This document shows positions 22,262-34,100 of a stretch of DNA of 64,000 nucleotides, piece after piece. The stretch comes from Cloeon dipterum (Eukaryota; Arthropoda; Insecta; Ephemeroptera; Baetidae): contig NC_088787.1 in the NCBI RefSeq assembly GCF_949628265.1, forward strand, positions 18,218,501 to 18,282,500, written 5' to 3'. How positions within the stretch are numbered: the first letter of the stretch is position 1; every line of letters begins with the position of its first letter. The notes under the pieces were generated by a model that saw only the letters and a list, made by a program, of their open reading frames with translations, had not been told where the DNA came from and did not search any database. A program made the translations under genes and the position numbers.

Positions 22262-25200
22262 ATGTCGGAATTCGCGTGGCCCATCTCGAAGCAAGTCGTG
22301 CTGCTGGCGTGCCTTTTGGTGGCCGCGATCAGCGGCGCCGCGCAAGCCAAGGCCGTCATCGCCGCCAACAACTCGCCGACGCTCATCGACTACGACAGTG
22401 AGTGCACTCGTTCTTTCCGCGCCTCCTTCGTCAGCTTAAAGTGGCTGCAAAACCAGTGAATACGTGCTCTTAACCCGGTGCGTTTGAGCGCCTAAAGAAA
22501 AACGCGATCACGCGGGTTCCCAGCTGACCCCAACTTTTATTGAGACGCAAAACGCAAAAAGGGCTGAAGTTTGTTTTCACGCTTAATAAGAATAAGATCA
22601 TTTTAAGCGAAAGTCCCATGAGAAAAAAACTTGCGTTGAGCTTATTTGTATTAAAGAAAAATAGGTTGAATAGTGTTAATTATAATATTGAAAAAATACA
22701 GAAACATTCTAAGCTGGGGAGATTGCGCATGACGCAATTAGAGGGTGATTTATTTATTACTGAAATCAGGAATAAGTTTTTATGTGTGAATATCTTCGAT
22801 TGCTATGTCCTTTTCATGTGTTTTAAAAAGGCATATATATGGCTTCAAGAGAATTGTGTCATTTTATATTATTTAATTCAATTTTGCATCACCCTTTTAG
22901 CTCACTGGCACAGAGAAAAAAATATGTTCTTGCAGGATTGAAAAAAATAAAAACTTTTCAACATAACACAACTAACGCAACTCAAAAAAGTAAAAGTAGT
23001 TCAAAATTGTGTTCGAGATGTCAGCAGCAAGTTGGGCAATAAGAAGGGTTTGGAACGAGCTAGGTAATTAAGTAACTGTTCAAACATTTTACTCAACTTG
23101 GGGACAGCTAAATGAACTGGAAGATGAACACTTGAGAAGTTGCGTTATGAAATTTAGCAGGCACCAATACCTGCCGTCTGAGACGACCTACACCTTACAT
23201 GATATAACCAGTCATTGAATGTATGTATGCTGGATGAATGAAATATCAAAAAAGGATGAAACATAAGCTTATATAAAAACTGTAATTAGATTTTTTCCTT
23301 TGTCCCAACTTGAGATAAATTATCCTGAAGCAACGAGAAAAGCGGGAAACTGGGGGAAATGATTTTTTTTTCAGTCAATTCACTCGAAATGGAACTGCAG
23401 GCTGATATAATCCATCCTTGTAACACGCCATTCATTGCTCCCGAAATTGCGTCTGCTGGGCCGATGGGGGAAAATACACTGCGAGAAGCCTTTTAAGTGC
23501 CTTGTGTGCTCAATCATGTTTCTTCGCGGCTCTGCATTCGCTCTCGCTTCTCTCGAAATTAAATAACGCCACTTTTCTACTCTTTTGAACACTCCTTGAT
23601 TTTCGTCATTCGCGTGGGTCGCGGATTTATACATTCACACGCGCGAGTGTGTGTGTGTGAGTGAGTGATATTTGTGCGCGTGGCAACCGTCACACTGGCA
23701 TACATGAAAGGGAGCCAGCGAATCATAATAACAACGCCACTGACAAATTCGCATTATTAAATTTGTGCGGGAAAATGTGACGCTTTTGCGGCAGGACAAA
23801 GGATCGGCAGCCGCAATAAGACTCTCTTGCGTCTTTTTCTTCTTCGTTGACGCATTTTATTAAATTGAACCAGCCTGCTTTTTGTGCACACGCAACGCAC
23901 ACTCGTAAACTCATACATACGCGCGTGCAGACGTTAATGACACACAAAAAAGGGTGCACAAGCGGCCTGTTTTACGGCAAAAATGAATGGAGCAATATTG
24001 TGCGTTTCTCCGTGCAGCGAGCCAGAGAGGATGATGGTAAATAAGCAGGCACTTTTCAGCGGGCATGCCTATGCGAGAGACGTTTCAATTTCGCGGCGCA
24101 GATTGCATTTTTTATGCGGGAAAGCGTGTGCCGAGATTTTCTCAAGCAGATCCATGCTGAATTGAGTCCGTTCCTGTTACAGAGCATTCAAAGAGACTCA
24201 ATTACGATGATCAAGATTAATAATTTTGCTTGGCAAATACATGCTGTTATTACTGACAATGAGAAAAAAAGAGGAAATTTTTCAGTCCTTATATTAAAGG
24301 CAGTCTATTTAATTGACATATATAAAAGTATCCCTTTTTATGCCAGCACAACTAATCGCAGTATTTAAAAAAAACGTAAAAAAAACTATTCGTTTTTAAT
24401 TTGCACACTCCGCACATTTATTGAGAAGAAAAATGCATTATAAATCATACAAAAAATTAATAATCAAATACCAACCAGGGAAAATTCCCTTAACATCATA
24501 TATGATGAAATCGAACGGAGAAATATGATATTATTGTGTCAGAGTTGCTTGTTTTTTTCGTTTTTTTTGTCAGGCGCTTTTTCCATTTCATTTGATTTTT
24601 AATTTCATTGAAGTGCTTGAGGAAGAGAACCCATGAGTTACAAAATGAATTTAGTAGTTTATGTTGAGCCTAGCTATTGTATTCTAGGATCTTCGATAGC
24701 ATGAATTCTCTAAACGATTTGGTTAAATCAAGCTTCTTCTATTCACTTGATTTCTTTATGATCGATTACAATTTTGGCACTAGATTATGCTTAAAAATAT
24801 AAAAAATGTCACAGCTCTGGAATGAATACGTTTGTGGTGTCACAGAAATGTCAATGTGTGTAGGATAATATCCTACACACATTATGCATAGCATAACAAA
24901 CCTGCAAAAATAACCAAGAAATTGAAATACTTCAATAAAAATTTTTGAAATAGATAATAATCTGTGCTATTTTAAAATACGGATGGACGGCAATGTAACA
25001 CAATACTGTTCGTCTAGCTGTTTCGGCACAGCACACAGCATGCCTCATCATTACGTGCAAAATAAAATTCAGCGCTGCAGTATTTTGAAGACATGTTGAG
25101 AAAACAATTAAATATTTAAATTTTAGTATTAAAAATTTATGTTCCAAAGTATTTGATTAATTTTATTATTGGTTTAAATAACTAAAAAAACTCTTTTAAA

Positions 25201-25560
25201 TGTATTTTCTGATTTATTTCACGCAGCTATCCTAAAGTTGCAAAAGTTTCTGATCGAGCCCTTGAGCGTTGAGGAGGAGCAGTCGAAGGACAGGGCGACG
25301 CTGCTCAACTCGGAGGTGCTGATCAACCACGAACTGGTGCGGAAATCGGCGCCGAACCGCACGCCGTCGCTCCGCCTGCGCTTCGGCCGCCGCTCTGAGT
25401 CGCCGATGGTGAGCCTTGCAACGCCTTTTTCGGCGAAGCATTCGCCTGAATGCACGGCACGTTCGCAGTAATGTGTGTGTACATTTGCATTGTCTCCGTC
25501 TGCTCGCAGGGAGTGACCATCAACGAGCAGCTTGAAATGCCAGTGGGTCACTTCAACTGA
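22262..25560 (+). CDS. sNPF: Short neuropeptide F precursor
   Basis: Secreted precursor of an amidated neuropeptide acting through the sNPF receptor, a GPCR linked to feeding and circadian or growth control in insects. Coding exons are 22262-22397, 25227-25408 and 25510-25560, in phase, 122 residues. A signal peptide covers about residues 1-29 (VVLLACLLVAAISGAAQA). After RK at 84-85 comes SAPNRTPSLRLRF (86-98), then the amidation glycine 99 and the dibasic site RR (100-101), followed by the conserved SESPM. The RLRF-amide core and flanks are diagnostic. Only one active peptide is encoded, as in most insects and unlike the several RLRF/RLRW forms of Drosophila. The 2.8-kb intron 3 is AT-rich and contains a perfect 31-base palindrome. 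The gene converges on SRF. Confidence 0.95.
24853..24883. repeat. Perfect 31-base palindrome
   Basis: The sequence reads AATGTGTGTAGGATA, a central A, then its exact reverse complement TATCCTACACACATT. It can form a 15-bp stem. It lies in the long sNPF intron and is not part of any coding or splice signal. Confidence 0.9.
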
Positions 25561-25633
25561 CCAGCAACACCGCCTGCCCGAGTGGAGACCAACGCGAACG
25601 CAGCCCTTTGACCTAGAGACGATAGGAACTCTC

Positions 25634-25639
25634 AATAAA
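25634..25639 (+). terminator. sNPF polyadenylation signal
   Basis: AATAAA lies 74 bases after the sNPF stop codon. It faces the SRF gene, whose own signal on the opposite strand lies about 410 bases further right. Confidence 0.65.
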
Positions 25640-26191
25640 AATATTTCACGCCACAATTAACCAGCATTTTTCTGTTATGCTCCCGAAAGGTCATTTGACA
25701 AAAATTCTTCTGCACAGGTAAATCCCCCAGGGATAATTTACGACGGATCTAATTTAGCGCGGGAAGGATGATGAGTCTCAAGAATTTTTATTCGGCCCGA
25801 TTATCTTAAGACGAGCGGCAAAAATTTTTAGCAGGAAATTGCTGGACTGAGGTTGTCTCTGCTTAGTTAGAACCGTGAACGGAGAACTTTTCTTCTCTGG
25901 TATAGAAGTAACGACGGAATTAGATCAAGTTAATATAGTTACCTCCCACCAATTTATATGCTTCTAAACTAGCTCTCACATTTTGTGGACGTTTGAATTA
26001 AGCAATATTGGCTATTAAGTTATCAAAACAAATTTAATTCGCAGTTAATTGGTTTATTAATAACAAAAAGGCGCAATAAATTATCAACATGCAAATGGTT
26101 TGATTACAAAAATGAGAACAGCCTAAATTAGTTAAAGCACTAATCGTAAGAGCAATCGATTGACAAGAAGTGAGAAACTTTTCATTCGCTG
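25640..26191. other. Convergent 3' flanks of sNPF and SRF
   Basis: No coding exon was seen on either strand. The right part is the probable 3' UTR of the long SRF transcript. Confidence 0.5.
26053..26058 (-). terminator. SRF polyadenylation signal (long form)
   Basis: Minus-strand AATAAA about 135 bases beyond the stop codon of the long SRF isoform (26194-26192). Its position supports the proposed last exon. Confidence 0.5.
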
Positions 26192-29100
26192 TTATTTCTT
26201 GGAGAGATCTGCGGGGGAGCACTGCGTCTCTCCTCCTTTCGCAAGGTGCAGGGGAATGGCAAGATGCGGCTTGTTCCCCGAACTTGGACCTGCGAGCCGA
26301 AAATCAAGTCATAATCGGTCCAAATGGCTTTTGGCGAACGGGCAGCAAAATAAAAAGACGAAAATGGACATGGTGACTCACCTTCAGCTTTGACTGCGAA
26401 CAGCATTCCGCTGGGCAACCCTGCGTGAGGCGCCGTGTACATCATCGAAGACGTCGGCGACTGGTAGACTAAGTTTCCATTGTGAAATGCTACTAAAATC
26501 AAATTGAAAAAAATTAATTATTATTTAAATTGGTAACGTGGGTTAAAAAAAAATGAAATTTACAAATGAAATTATTAAATTGAGGTCGGACGCACCCATA
26601 GGACCAACAGAACACAAGTTTTCAGGCACGTCTTGCTTGATAAGCTTGCCGGCTTCAGACTTGGAAAATTTCTCGTCGGCCATGCGGTTGTCGAAAGACT
26701 CGGAGTCGCTGTCGATAGACGAGTCGGAGCCACTGCCGCATGATTTTGGCGAGCCTTCGATCTGGAAAGAAACGAGCAAAAAGTGAGACGCGCGCGTTGT
26801 CCGAAATGGTCAGAGCACGTGCTGCATAAATTACGGCGGCAGTCGCCGACTGCCGAGAAAAGCAGTTTTGCCCAAACAAGATTTTAGGGCCGAGTTTGGC
26901 GAGCAAACGGCCGTGCGCGCCTAAAAAGGCCACCTTCTTAATGCAAGTGGTCTTTCGGGCCCCCTCTCTGACTTGGACTCGTATTCTCGCCTTAAAAGGA
27001 AGGCGACCAAGTCCACTGGAAGGGAAGTGGCTGGCCGAGAGAGCGCGGCAGTCGCGATGTGGGCACCGTTGGCGCGACTTCGCACTCGGACTCTCAGGTG
27101 AGCCATCTGACACGCAATTCGCCTATTTTCCGCGCCGATTTCGCAAATTTCGTCTGAAAAGTTGACATTTCGATGGGACACGGGTTAAATTGCACGATTG
27201 TATACTTTCAGACGGGATTGCTATTAATTTCGGCAAATTAACAACAAATCCTAGTTTTTCTCGACCGTGTGACGAAACGCTTGCAACATTCACATTTTCG
27301 CAAACATATTTTTTGGTTTAAATACATAATGCAAAATCAAATTTACTGTTCATTTACATTTTGGATTTTCGCTCTGACCTAATTTCAGCAAATTTAAAAT
27401 TTGCAATCAATATGAAAATTAATTTAACTGTTAAGATAGTTTCTACGCCTTGGCATATGAAAAACTCGTTTTAAACAACAAGTTCCGCGGCCAATGCGGA
27501 AATTTTCGGAAAAATCGCACCAGTTGGTAGAAATTCGGCTGGAAATTCTAACGGTCGCGCGTTTCAGTAACAAAGAAAGTTTCCAAGAGCGATTTGGAAC
27601 AAAAAACATAATAACATGTGTGCTCGCCGGCCGAGCGCAGATGGTCAGAGTTGAGCGCCGGTTGGGCACCCCCGCTAGGGGTTGGCGGGCTGATTTTCCG
27701 GCCGCGGCTCATTTTCGGCGCGACTCGGCCCGGTGCGGGTGGAAAATGGAAAAATTTGGCCAATTGCGCGTGCAGAAAAACTAAAAGTGTAGCATTTGTT
27801 GCAACAGGTGGTCAATAGCCCTGGAGGAGATCTCGGGAGGAGCGGAGGAGGGGGAGGGGAAGAGGATCCCAATGTGACTCACGGCGCGAGAGAGCAGAGC
27901 CGGACGGACGACGACGCGCGGCGAGCACACAACACATCGTTTCTTCCGTCGCACCGCGCCGACAGAGACGGGCGCATCGCGGCAGGTAATAACCCAACAA
28001 AATTTGGCAATATCTAACTTAATCTGACACTTTTTTTGTTTCAGGGGGCGAGGGAGGAAGTGCGAGCGAGAGAAGATTGAGAGGTGAAGCAATCCTGCCC
28101 GAAACTGACCGGAGAACAAGACTGATTGTATCACTATGTGTACTTTGTAGCGAGAAATCTGTTCAGAAAATTGCTGTGTCGTTATTTTCGATGAAACCCA
28201 AAATTTAAAGAAAAAAATAATAATAAATGGAGAGAATCGAACATATCATATTGCAAGACGGTATCTATAAAAGAGAAGTGATACATAAAATAAAAGTTTC
28301 TATTTTCAATCCTCCTCTATTCGTGTCCAATGACAACCGACAAGGGTTCAACTTTTATTCGACATCACGCGCAGAAGAAAAATAGACAGCGAGAGAGAGT
28401 GAGAGTTTCCATTGATTTATTCTTTCCGCAATGGGACCGGAGTTGTCCCTTTAATTATTATTAATATATGTATCGCGCAGGAAAAAGGAAGTTCCTGAGC
28501 GCGTGCCTCGAATGCCCGATTTTCGCAGGACATTAGTGCCTGCTGCTTTGCATTTCCTATGCATTGGCTATCATTTTCGTGTCACAACACGTACGACCGG
28601 TCGGTAGGGTAGGATGGCCGGCCAGTCTGCGCGGATGTCAATCAAATTTGGACATCAGCACAAACGCCAGGGGTCCTTGACACTGACATTATGATTATAG
28701 TTCCTTCCGACTGGGCGTACGGTCGTTGTCACGTAATACACGTACACTCATGTGTTGCGACAATCAAAATTCGAGGACTTAACGAAAGTTTTTTTTTAAT
28801 TTTATTTGTCTCTTTTTCAACAATGGCGATCACATGAGCCATTCTCACTACTTGTACGATTTTAGTTGATGTCGTAATTGTCATAAATCTTTCTATCTCT
28901 CTCTGCGTTTCTCTTCCTTTCGGTATTATTGGATTGTTGTTAATTTCAAGAGTGATTACATATTCGGGTTTGGTCTCTTTGGAAGTAATTTTATTTACAT
29001 GTGATAATCCTAATAAAATAACTCAAAAATTATGCATTAAAACAAAAATATAATCTGCCTGGCCAGTTCTCTCGCTTAAAAGTACCTCTCTGTCAGTATT

Positions 29101-31154
29101 GAGCACTTCAATTATGTCATTCGGGAGCAAAATTACTATGATTTTTTAAATGTAATGTTTTATATTACACAACACAGCGAAGTAGCACATCATTTAACTA
29201 TGAACACATTGGTTGAGATTGTGGCAATGGAAGTTGTAAATTGTAGGAGGAAAACAATTCGATGCTGAGCGTGTTTTTTTTTCGAGTTACGTATTTGGAA
29301 ATTAGCAGCTGGGCCAATAATTCGATATAGGGGAGTAATTTTAGGGGTGTCACTTTTAAAAATAAGAGCGTGCGAATAAATAATAAAAATAAATAACAAA
29401 AACAATGGCCAGATCATAGCCGTCGATCACGATTATTACAAGAATTTTTCCAGCGGGTTATGTCCCCGCGCGGAGCACATGATAATAATAATTATTATTG
29501 CACATGATTTCAAGAACGGGCGGCCGTTCGTACGAAGGAATGTACGTCGAGTTAAAATTAAGTATAAAAGAGCTAAAGTTAAGAGAGCAGACCTCGCAAG
29601 ACTACTGACTGGACGTGCGCGCGCCCAAACTCAATTCCAAGAAGGCCCTATTTACAATCAAACGAGCTACTGCCCGTTGACGAGAGAGGAGCCTCGCAGC
29701 TTCACGCAAAGGAGCCACTTGTACCTCAACTAGCGCGACCATTACGGCTCCCGCGAGCACAAACGCGAGACGAGAAATACGGGACCCACATAGCTCAGCA
29801 TGCAAATTTTGGACGTTTCTGCAGAGAATTTCTCGGAATTGCGGAGAAATCGCGGATTTTTTTCATTTCAAGAAAAGCTGGGAGACGCTTAGTTAACGCG
29901 TCTACAAAAACGATTCAATCGTTGCAAACACTAATATATGACTCCATTACACTTCGTGAACAGCAATAATTATAATTGTTTTCAGGCGACTGGAAAAAGG
30001 TAAATTCAACACGTTACAAATCCATTATTTCCCACGCAAGGCGTCAGAATCTTTCTCCGGTCCGACAAATTCTCTGCGTACTACTAACTTCCAACATGCA
30101 AGAGCCAAAGAGGGCCTCGGATTCCGCGTCCAGCACCTTGGGAGCCCCGAACGGCCCACCGACAGCGAGCACGCTCTACTGGGGCCCTCCAAGGCTGTAC
30201 TGGTGGTGACCCGGGTGGCCCTGCTGTGGACTTTGGTGTGACATGTGATGGTGGTACTGACTCGCTCCACTCTGCATGCTCTGCAGCTGCAGTTGCGAGT
30301 CGAGCAGCAGCTGTTGCGCGTGCTGCGAGTGGCTCTGGTACTGCGACTCGTGCAACTGGTAATTGCTAAGTAACTGCTGCTGCCTTACTTTTTCCCCGTC
30401 CTCGATGTGGTAGCTGAGCTCCGTCTCCTCGAAGCCGGTGGCCGACATGCGTTGGTCGCCGCTAGCGGCCGACGCTTGAGGAACTGGCTGCGATGCGTCC
30501 GGCGAGTTGAGGCACGTTTGGATCAGCGCCTTGCCAGCCTCCGACGTGATCATCGGCTGCAGCTTGCGGGTGGCAAAAGTGTAAACGTGACCCGTCTCGC
30601 TGGCCACCAGCAGCATCACCTGTGTGCCCGTCAGTGTCGACAGCTCGTAGGCCTGAAACGGATAATTCAAAAAAATTTAGTCCCGTGCTTTGGAAGTTTC
30701 CCAGAATAGTGATTGTAAAAGACAGTCTAGGATGAAACCTACCTTTTTCATGATGCCGGTTTTTCTTTTGGAAAAGGTAGTGTACCGCCTGAGCTTATTG
30801 TCGATGTATTCCATCTTGATTTTGACCCGGCCCTTCGTCTTCTTGCCATTGGGGGGCGGTACGGAGCTGCCGGTCATCGAACGGGGCGTCGAGGTGGACG
30901 GCTGCGTGTACGCGGTCGGCTCATCCAGCGAGTCCGACTCGGAGGCCTCGAAACCTTCGTATTGAGAACCTGCCATCAGATTTTACTAAATTCTGCTCAG
31001 AGAGAGGCGCACACTCACCTTCCAAGTGGCGCTTCCTGCTGCCGCACGGCTGCGTATCATGGTAAATGTCTGGCGTACCACTGGGCAACATGTTGCACTG
31101 GTTGTAATTGAGAAAACTGCGAGGACTAGTGCTGCTACTTTCAGAATGATTCAT
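26192..31154 (-). CDS. bs: Serum response factor (blistered), MADS-box transcription factor
   Basis: Binds CArG boxes as a dimer; in insects it controls tracheal terminal cells, wing intervein cells and muscle genes. Common exons are 31154-31019 and 30969-30743, then exon 3 starting at 30652. The MADS box runs from about residue 92 (GRVKIKMEYIDNKLRRYTTF) across the exon 2/3 junction (GIMKK|AYELSTLTGTQV) to the SAM-type extension (ALIQTCLNSPD). Exon 3 can be read two ways. Unspliced, it runs to a stop at 30178-30176 with a Gln/His-rich tail (279 residues). Alternatively a GTAAGG donor after 30389 (EDGEK) joins in phase to 26761-26596, 26492-26382 and 26289-26192, giving 333 residues. Those exons include YQSPTSSMMYTAPHAGLPSG, which I align with the vertebrate SRF segment MMYPSP...VMYAPTSGLADGS. 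Start and MADS domain are secure; the long form is inferred from phase and that similarity. Confidence 0.9.
26762..30175. other. Long SRF intron or downstream flank, with a CpG-rich island
   Basis: In the long SRF form this is intron; in the short form its right end is 3' UTR. A GC- and CpG-rich island at 26.8-28.1 kb holds many chance open frames on both strands and the candidate plus-strand spliced transcript listed separately. From 28.2 to 30.1 kb I see AT-rich noncoding DNA. Confidence 0.5.
27800..28245 (+). ncRNA. Candidate spliced plus-strand transcript antisense to SRF
   Basis: A good plus-strand donor (GCAG|GTAATA, exon end 27985), a 59-base intron with a strong pyrimidine tract (TTTTTTTGTTTCAG, next exon from 28045) and an AATAAA at 28222-28227 form a compact transcript-like unit in a CpG-rich island. 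The spliced sequence has a long frame ending at 28208, but it contains no ATG near its 5' end, so I treat it as noncoding. The 5' border is unknown. Confidence 0.25.
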
Positions 31155-34100
31155 GGTCTAATCTAATCGAGTGCGAATCACCAGTCTTGCTCATGTTGCT
31201 TGCGTGCTATCCTGGAAAAAAGAATATCCAATTTTCAATGCAACGTCCACGCAAATTGGCCGAAAATCACTAAAACATGCGCTTGAAAACAGCTATCATT
31301 ACGGCGAGAAAATCGTGAGGCCGAAACCAAAAGAGAAATGGCCTATTAGAGAGTGGGCTCTATTATTATCTAATCACCACACGCAAGGTTACACCCCCTG
31401 GTCGGCCTCAAACAATCGCCGATTTCGGCAGGATTCGGCCCGACAAACGGCCCGTCCACTAGCCGATCGCCTGTTTCGGCCACGGATTGCGCGCTGGAAT
31501 CGAAACCCGGACGAAAAAACTTCGTCGGGCCGCGGGGGGCAACTTGGAAAATCCACGTGTAGGCGACGAACTCGCGGTGTGAGTAGCACTCTCGTTGCAG
31601 GCAGGAGAAAATGCACTTACTGGAGATTTGGATGCAGGTCGCAGGCGGGCAGTCTTGTCGAAAATTCAGCCGAACGAGTCACTACAAGAGATTGATTGAG
31701 TCCCTCGTGGCTGCGGGCATACTTGACGATCAAACTGGTCGCTTGTCAACACCGTACCACATTGGGCACGGCGATTCTGACTAATTTGCTTAGGCTAATG
31801 GTGAGCCGCACCAGAGGTAAGGTAAGCGATCGCCTCTGCGCCAATCCTTCCACACTCTTCCGCCAGAGCAAGTAGTGCCTCTCGGCGCGCACTGATTCTG
31901 ACTGAAAGTGCCGGCGGCGAATTTTTCCGGGAAACTTTTCCACGCTGCTTTCCGCACGGGGGATACCCGATTCTCGGTCCGCGGAGCGATAGATGGGTTT
32001 TAAAGGGGCCGATCTTTACTATTTTTAATGCGCGTAGTAATTGTAAAAGAGATCGACGTGTCCATATTTAGCTCTCCCTCCCTAAAAGGTATCCATAGCT
32101 TTATAAGGGCATGCAAGGAAGACCCCTCTCCAGAAATATATTTTATATTATGTATACACACACGCATTGTTCAAATTTGAGTCGAGGCGGTCCTTTGATT
32201 CGCACTTTATCTGGACAAAATACCATAAATACTTGTTTGTCTTTTTGCTGCTGAAAACACAAACAAACGAGAAGCCTTTCTTTCGTCTGCTACTCCACTT
32301 TTTACCCTGCTGCTGCCCGCGCAGCGCAACACGTTCGCTCGCGCGCCCGCCGCTACTCCATATAAATTGTATTCAAATTCAATTAAACCCTGCCGCGCGC
32401 GCTCTGCTTGCACAAAAATCGTGTTATTTTTATTCCGGCTAGCTTGGCAATTTGGTTAATTACATCAGCATTTGCATGAGTTCATCTTGTTCAATTTGCA
32501 TTTACAGCGCGTGCAAATTCTTTGCGAAATCGCAGGCAGCGCCGGGCGATTGTGAAGGCAGGCATTTTTCCAAAATTTCTGCGATTCTTGTTTAATGAGG
32601 GGAGGCAGCGATTGTGTCTCTCGATTTTTGTTCTCGGCCGGTGTAATGAAGCATTAAGAGATTTTAAGATGCCGGTCTTGTCAGTTATTTCTAAATAAAC
32701 CACACATAGCACGGTGCATTTTTCATAAAATCCAGCAGCAAAGCGCTTCATGAATTTTTATGACTTCTGTAAAGTTCAAGTAGCTGTTGAAAGAGGCGAA
32801 TTAAAGTTAATGGCCAAACGAAAAATCCGACGGATTAATTACACCCCGCTTGCATATTATTCACTAAGAAGAAGTTTAATTTAATGCGGCTATTTCGTAC
32901 ATATAATGCGCGCCGAAAAAGGCAAAAGTCAGAGAAGGAATAATTAATTTGTATTCCGTAAAGTCGAAAGTTGTCACTCAATGTAACAGTGCCCAAATTA
33001 AGTATGGTCATTGCGTCAAAAAAGCAAGTATACAAACAGTACGTGCAAGAATTCCTCGGGTCAGTTTAGCTCTAGTGTGTGGCTGCGCGCGGTGGTCACT
33101 TTCTAGTTAGCCACGGTGCACGCAGCACTCCACGCAAACTTAATCTCCGGCGCATGATTTGTTTTCTTAATCCAGAAGATCTGTTCTAGTTAGCCTCCAC
33201 GGCACTAACTAATTAATTCAAATTAAGCAAAAAAATCTGACCTGCGCGCACGTTTTAGAAAACCGACCGCGCCGCGCGCGAACACAAAGAGAGAAAAGTC
33301 GCTCTAACGCTCTTGATCCATAATGCTCACCTCCAGCTTGTGTCCAGCACAAAGGATTTTTACTCCATTAAAATGCATGTGCGATATTACAACAAAAGGA
33401 CGCCGCCGCCGCCGCCGCAGCAGCAGCAGCAGCAGCAACAAAAGCAGCAGCCGCATGCGGCGATTAATTGCTTTTCGATTAGCCTAGCTCTCGCGACGAG
33501 AGTCCACACCTGGCCCCGAGAGTATTTAGATTTTTCAGGCACTCGGTCTTGCGGCTGCCGGCCGGCCGCGGCCGCGCTTTATTCATTCATAACTACATTT
33601 CGCGCATTTCCATGTATGAAAGCGGCGGAGGTTCCGAAGTCCCAATATGGTCCTTCTGAATGCATGCCTGAGCAAGAAGTACCTGCTCGGCGCGGCCGGC
33701 CGCTCGGCGAATATAAAGATTGGCACAAATAAAACAACTTGTTCCGACCTTATTGTGCACCTGAGACACACCGGCATAAATGAGCCGCGCGATTTGCAAA
33801 TTGATTGCGGCTCCTTTGCCCGTGAGCAATGCTTCCGTTTTCCACTTTTTGTTGACAAAATTAGCATTTAAACGTTTCTCGACCTCATTTTTTAACCAAT
33901 TCGACACCCACGCACTTGCAAAAACTTATACGATGTCTCTAATCAGTTCTTGTTGCCAATTAATTGTTTTAAAGATATCTTTGATATTTTTAAAACTTTT
34001 GTATATTCTTCCCATTCCTCCTTTTGAAACATTTCCGTTTTTCTACCAAACATAATTAAATTTAATGATACGACCATATCTATATGTTTTTAAGGGATAA

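Follow-up and report, generated by a model that had tools for sequence, protein, structure and literature searches.

Two predicted C-termini for one insect SRF gene, one by read-through of exon 3 and one beyond a 3.6-kb intron

Can a single SRF gene equip the same DNA-binding domain with either of two tails? The question is raised by a gene on the minus strand of the 64-kb stretch of DNA analysed here (the window), which belongs to a genome of 190 Mb in 10 contigs. Its third exon appears able either to run on to a stop of its own or to be cut at an internal donor and joined to exons lying further downstream.

On its sequence, the gene is an SRF gene, of the blistered type and from an insect. 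Human SRF (chain 1k6o_B) matches residues 87-175 of the protein with an E value of 2.2e-50 and a nearly identical core, far more strongly than the MEF2 match (only about 1e-8, residues 92-155). The Pfam domain SRF-TF (PF00319), split across two exons, is found with an E value of 4.9e-21. Contig C3 carries another MADS gene, presumably MEF2, whose match to the SRF protein is far weaker (E 1.6e-4, 40% identity). The family search also returned five matches to the odorant-receptor family 7tm_6 in the same genome; we take this family to be insect-typical, and its presence to fit an insect. Among the matches listed in the search of this genome there was one SRF locus and no retrocopy, and a search with the tail alone likewise listed no retrocopy. 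None of the pattern matches to SRF relatives in a collection of virus contigs (11) or of prokaryote contigs (127) was confirmed, as expected from what such collections contain, and an Rfam scan of 24000-34000 returned nothing at the gathering score. Six matches to RPEL, the actin-binding motif of MRTF-type SRF cofactors, occur in the same genome, on contigs C1 and C5 (L013-L016).

Layout of the two tails

In the order in which they would be transcribed, the features of the gene and of its two predicted ends are:

31019..31154, minus strand: SRF exon 1, coding part, with the ATG at 31154-31152; in phase; donor GAAG/gtgagt, score 8.0
30743..30969, minus strand: SRF exon 2, holding the first half of the MADS box up to IMKK, where an intron interrupts the box
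30389..30652, minus strand: part of SRF exon 3 common to both isoforms, from the second half of the MADS box to HIEDGEK
30383..30388, minus strand: GTAAGG, the alternative 5' splice site, in phase 0; score 3.4 (rank 7 of 400 GT)
30176..30388, minus strand: predicted short-form tail, 70 aa, Gln/His-rich, then TAG; in-frame read-through of exon 3
28990..28995, minus strand: putative poly(A) signal, the first AATAAA past the short-form stop in a search for AATAAA and ATTAAA
26596..26761, minus strand: predicted long-form exon 4, 166 b, Ser/Asp/Glu-rich; acceptor rank 2 of 413
26382..26492, minus strand: predicted long-form exon 5, 111 b, holding GNLVYQSPTSSMMYTAPHAGLPSG; acceptor rank 41 of 413
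26192..26289, minus strand: predicted long-form exon 6, 98 b including the TAA stop; chain in phase
26053..26058, minus strand: AATAAA past the long-form stop, from a motif search

From 30652, exon 3 is open in frame to a TAG at 30178-30176, which gives a product of 279 aa. Cutting at 30388 would instead join it, over an intron of 3.6 kb, to exons 4-6, each of which is preceded by AG, with GT after exons 4 and 5 and the phase kept to the stop. The spliced long form is 333 aa and has 209 residues in common with the short one, and the full MADS/DNA-binding core is present in both predicted forms. The preliminary description had placed the end of exon 3, the GTAAGG donor, the three downstream exons with their phase and stop, and the AATAAA that follows; all of these were recovered at the same positions, and its figure of 125 residues for the long tail is corrected to 124 residues plus the stop. 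Two alternative last exons are predicted by this layout, and one DNA-binding domain would carry either tail.

Splice sites were scored throughout with assumed weights, and the ranks refer to minus-strand sites in 25800-33500. Scores are 8.0, 6.1, 2.0 and 8.0 for the donors of exons 1, 2, 4 and 5, respectively, and the acceptors of exons 2 to 6 score -0.3, 2.4, 6.1, 0.5 and 3.1, the mediocre sites of the long chain being the exon 4 donor (2.0) and the exon 5 acceptor (0.5). The donor at 30388, which carries an A at -1, falls below those of exons 1, 2 and 5 and above that of exon 4. A fairly weak donor lying inside an open frame would fit the needs of a composite terminal exon.

Other details of these sites can be added. 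A tandem TAGTAG at the exon 5 acceptor (26495-26490, minus strand) would keep or drop one Val. A further minus-strand acceptor at 29989 (tttttccag/TCGCC, 9.2 bits with its branch site) could yield either a third C-terminus, of 24 residues, from the 30388 donor or an intron in the short-form 3'UTR. At the alternative donor, AAGTAA faces TTACTT across an 11-base loop (30390-30368, minus strand); an RNA hairpin at this donor is not special (z -0.80, with 44 of 200 shuffles folding equally well).

Coding properties of the tails

Exon chains were sought by dynamic programming started at 30388, using a codon model trained on 556 codons from the shared SRF exons and from two neighbouring genes recognised by eye. 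The best chain consists of exactly the three exons proposed, at 58.5 bits, a score reached by 0 of 200 and 0 of 2000 block dinucleotide shuffles (maximum 48.7). This control flatters the chain, because real DNA outscores shuffles: when other real 4.5-kb segments of the window were taken from both strands, leaving out minus-strand segments that overlap 26150-31200, 17 of the 73 scored at least 58.5, with a median of 37.9 for the set; the three highest overlap genes on which the codon model was trained. On its opposite strand, the SRF stretch has a chain score of 52.1.

The second-best chain, at 56.8 bits, holds the same three exons together with an extra upstream exon at 28104-27955. If that exon were real, and if the pair of CArG boxes found just upstream of exon 4 (described below) were a promoter-like element, as is possible, then only the short form might be SRF, and exons 4-6 might come from another gene or from a transcript started within the intron. 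We hold this to be very improbable, since exon 4 joins exon 3 in phase 0, exon 5 resembles the SRF C-terminus assumed here, the chain without the extra exon outscores the chain with it (58.5 vs 56.8 bits), and long and short forms have a precedent in the fly.

Synonymous codon choice is coding-like in both tails. Judged by regional composition, the count is 0/2000 for the long tail and 0/2000 for the short; judged by each tail's own composition, it is 23/2000 for the long and 2/2000 for the short. The short tail has a coding score of 22.1, and of the 395 minus-strand GT positions in 25900-33500 only 5, when read in frame, score at least 22.1. All five are in the SRF frame, 30388 being the last of them, and the other four start in the shared exon 3, which belongs to the training set. 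Read-through beyond the other four SRF donors gives -5.3, -17.3, -8.6 and 1.4 bits.

These figures bear on a second single-form reading, in which the long form is the sole true protein and the Gln/His stretch is open sequence of intron 3, seen at most as intron retention. It would draw on the fair rank of the 30388 donor (7 of 400), on the 1.2 kb from the short-form stop to 28995 in which the sense strand has neither AATAAA nor ATTAAA, and on the lack of a Pfam match above the cut-off for the Gln/His tail. It sits poorly with a tail whose codon use is coding-like even by its own composition (2/2000), with a coding score of 22.1 past 30388, where the other four donors give -17.3 to 1.4, and with the fly short isoform, a shorter transcript of two exons that lacks the long intron, in which we see an equivalent arrangement. 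We consider it unlikely.

The proposal of two C-termini is borne out by the in-phase layout, the best exon chain and the coding-like codons in both tails. The gene is very probably an SRF gene with a composite terminal exon that yields a short form of 279 aa and a long form of 333 aa by alternative ends, and we infer that both mRNAs exist. When splicing passes over the weak donor at 30388, the reading of exon 3 would run to its own stop and the transcript would end at the upstream poly(A) site, giving the short form. When the donor is used and transcription runs on to the downstream poly(A) site, about 4.3 kb further, splicing would add exons 4-6 and give the long form. Most likely, the choice of isoform would be set by a race between early 3'-end formation, with exon 3 left unspliced, and elongation as far as exons 4-6.

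Exon 5 and the intron between the tails

The human SRF letters used for the tail alignments are assumed to be correct; a literature search for these human peptides found no paper that contains them. The alignments took in exon 5 by itself, the whole long tail and the short tail. A segment of exon 5 of about 30 residues, GNLVYQSPTSSMMYTAPHAGLPSG, aligns to the assumed human SRF, and 3 of 1000 exon 5 shuffles score as high. For the whole long tail 7 of 1000 shuffles do so, the best alignment starting in exon 5 and reaching just into exon 6; the short tail is equalled by 139 of 1000 shuffles. When the shared end was aligned together with the first 40 tail residues, the alignment stopped short of exon 4. 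A conserved activation region had been claimed for the long tail; what stands is narrower, a single segment of exon 5 that aligns (3/1000) to the assumed human letters, and its resemblance to the vertebrate activation region is to be taken only as a lead. The text of PMC7793246 describes no known motifs in the 111-aa region specific to the fly long form. If the gene is transcribed as predicted, it would suggest an ancestral SRF C-terminus in the long tail and a later addition in the Gln/His tail.

The intron that separates the tails contains a further set of predicted elements:

27986..28044, plus strand: candidate antisense intron, 59 b, with a CTAAC branch-site-like sequence, 17.6 bits
27098..27103, plus strand: putative antisense donor CAG/GTGAGC, score 7.0, the sole plus-strand donor above 5.5 in 26000-30500
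27751..28500, plus strand: cluster of nine GAGAG sites around the antisense candidate
26920-26929 and 26990-26999, no strand assigned: two perfect CArG boxes, 60 b apart, between exon 4 and the antisense donor

With its 17.6 bits, a value reached by 4 of 500 shuffles, the candidate antisense intron outscores every sense intron of 50-120 b (best 15.3). Its donor is modest (3.2), and its acceptor scores 7.5, with no other plus-strand acceptor in 26000-30500 above 6. The donor at 27098 possibly belongs to another first exon of the antisense transcript, both first exons then sharing the acceptor at 28045. None of 1000 shuffles reaches nine GAGAG sites, and 4 of 253 750-b steps along the window do, the cluster's own included; the densest GAGAG/CTCTC cluster of the window is at 1751-2500, with 15 sites in 750 b. 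As a coding gene the antisense candidate was rejected, the spliced frame from an ATG at 27057 being only 27 aa, and nothing was recognisable by eye in the antisense frames through the other exon. These elements make it a candidate counterpart of the fly antisense unit bsAS, and antisense transcription in the intron may act as a brake on the long form, as proposed for bsAS.

The CArG box is, we assume, SRF's own binding site. The pair lies about 100-180 b upstream of the antisense donor at 27098, and in a post hoc test 2 of 2000 shuffles of the intron, and 9 of 200 of the whole window, gave a pair within 150 b. The six perfect CArG boxes of the window are at the level expected by chance (mean 5.8). 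Three CArG-like sites with one mismatch (32062, 32080 and 32099, within 32062-32108) are found upstream of exon 1, close to the likely sense promoter; they are weak (3/1000 regional shuffles, 13/60 whole-window shuffles). SRF might control its own tail choice, CArG-bound SRF driving the antisense transcript and blocking exons 4-6, with the exon 5 motif kept since the split from vertebrates. We think this improbable; were it true, SRF on the CArG boxes would favour production of the short form and so act as a feedback switch on the isoform ratio. The words CArG and feedback are absent from the main text of PMC7793246, and no insect case of SRF autoregulation is evident from the titles returned by a literature search.

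Relation to known SRF isoforms

Drosophila blistered (DSRF) is described as having long and short C-termini (PMC7793246, PMC6467476). Bs-PA (449 aa) and Bs-PB (355 aa) have the MADS box in common and differ at their ends; the short form comes from a shorter transcript that has two exons and lacks the long intron (PMC7793246). According to these texts the fly tails show tissue-specific use and have different roles, and a changed cofactor response is offered by the authors as a possibility (PMC7793246, PMC6467476). Transcription of bsAS is reported to repress the long form in wing interveins (PMC7793246; restated in PMC9114055). GAF sites mark the bsAS TSS, and both the long-short structure and bsAS are traced to the root of Pancrustacea (PMC7793246).

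Like fly blistered, the gene described here joins a common MADS domain, its MADS box interrupted by an intron, to divergent C-termini. A long intron following the MADS box has to be spliced out for its predicted long form, as in the fly, and is no part of its short form; by our own reading, the fly short form would be an exon read-through like the one predicted here. An antisense unit is present in the long intron of fly blistered, and that of the present gene contains a candidate, predicted from sequence, which would share with bsAS (CR44811) the intron, the strand and the nearby GAGA elements. The dimensions are unlike those of the fly: the short tail is 70 aa here and 17 aa in the fly (355 minus 449-111, from the printed lengths), the long tail has 124 aa, spread over three exons, as against 111 aa, and the intron is 3.6 kb as against 26 kb.

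In vertebrates, SRF isoforms are reported to differ in the activation region, and those without exon 5 are called dominant negative (PMC9185982). The present pair would be like SRF-delta-5 in keeping the same DNA-binding domain with an altered activation region, and one could suppose that the tails differ here, too, by internal exon skipping rather than by alternative last exons. Vertebrate SRF-delta-5 arises by exon skipping, whereas the short form predicted here is a read-through of exon 3 with its own tail and its own stop, an alternative terminal exon for which no skipped exon is required; a vertebrate-like origin of the two tails is, in our estimate, barely conceivable.

The sequence contains a shared MADS region followed by either tail, as in the pancrustacean structure, and the arrangement falls in a described class and is not new as a kind. 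What is new, and open to test, is how compact the layout is: the switch intron itself carries an antisense candidate and a CArG pair. If it is transcribed as predicted, the locus would be a compact version, of about 5 kb, of the blistered long-short switch, and one reporter construct would hold the antisense candidate, the GAGA elements, the CArG boxes and both putative poly(A) signals.
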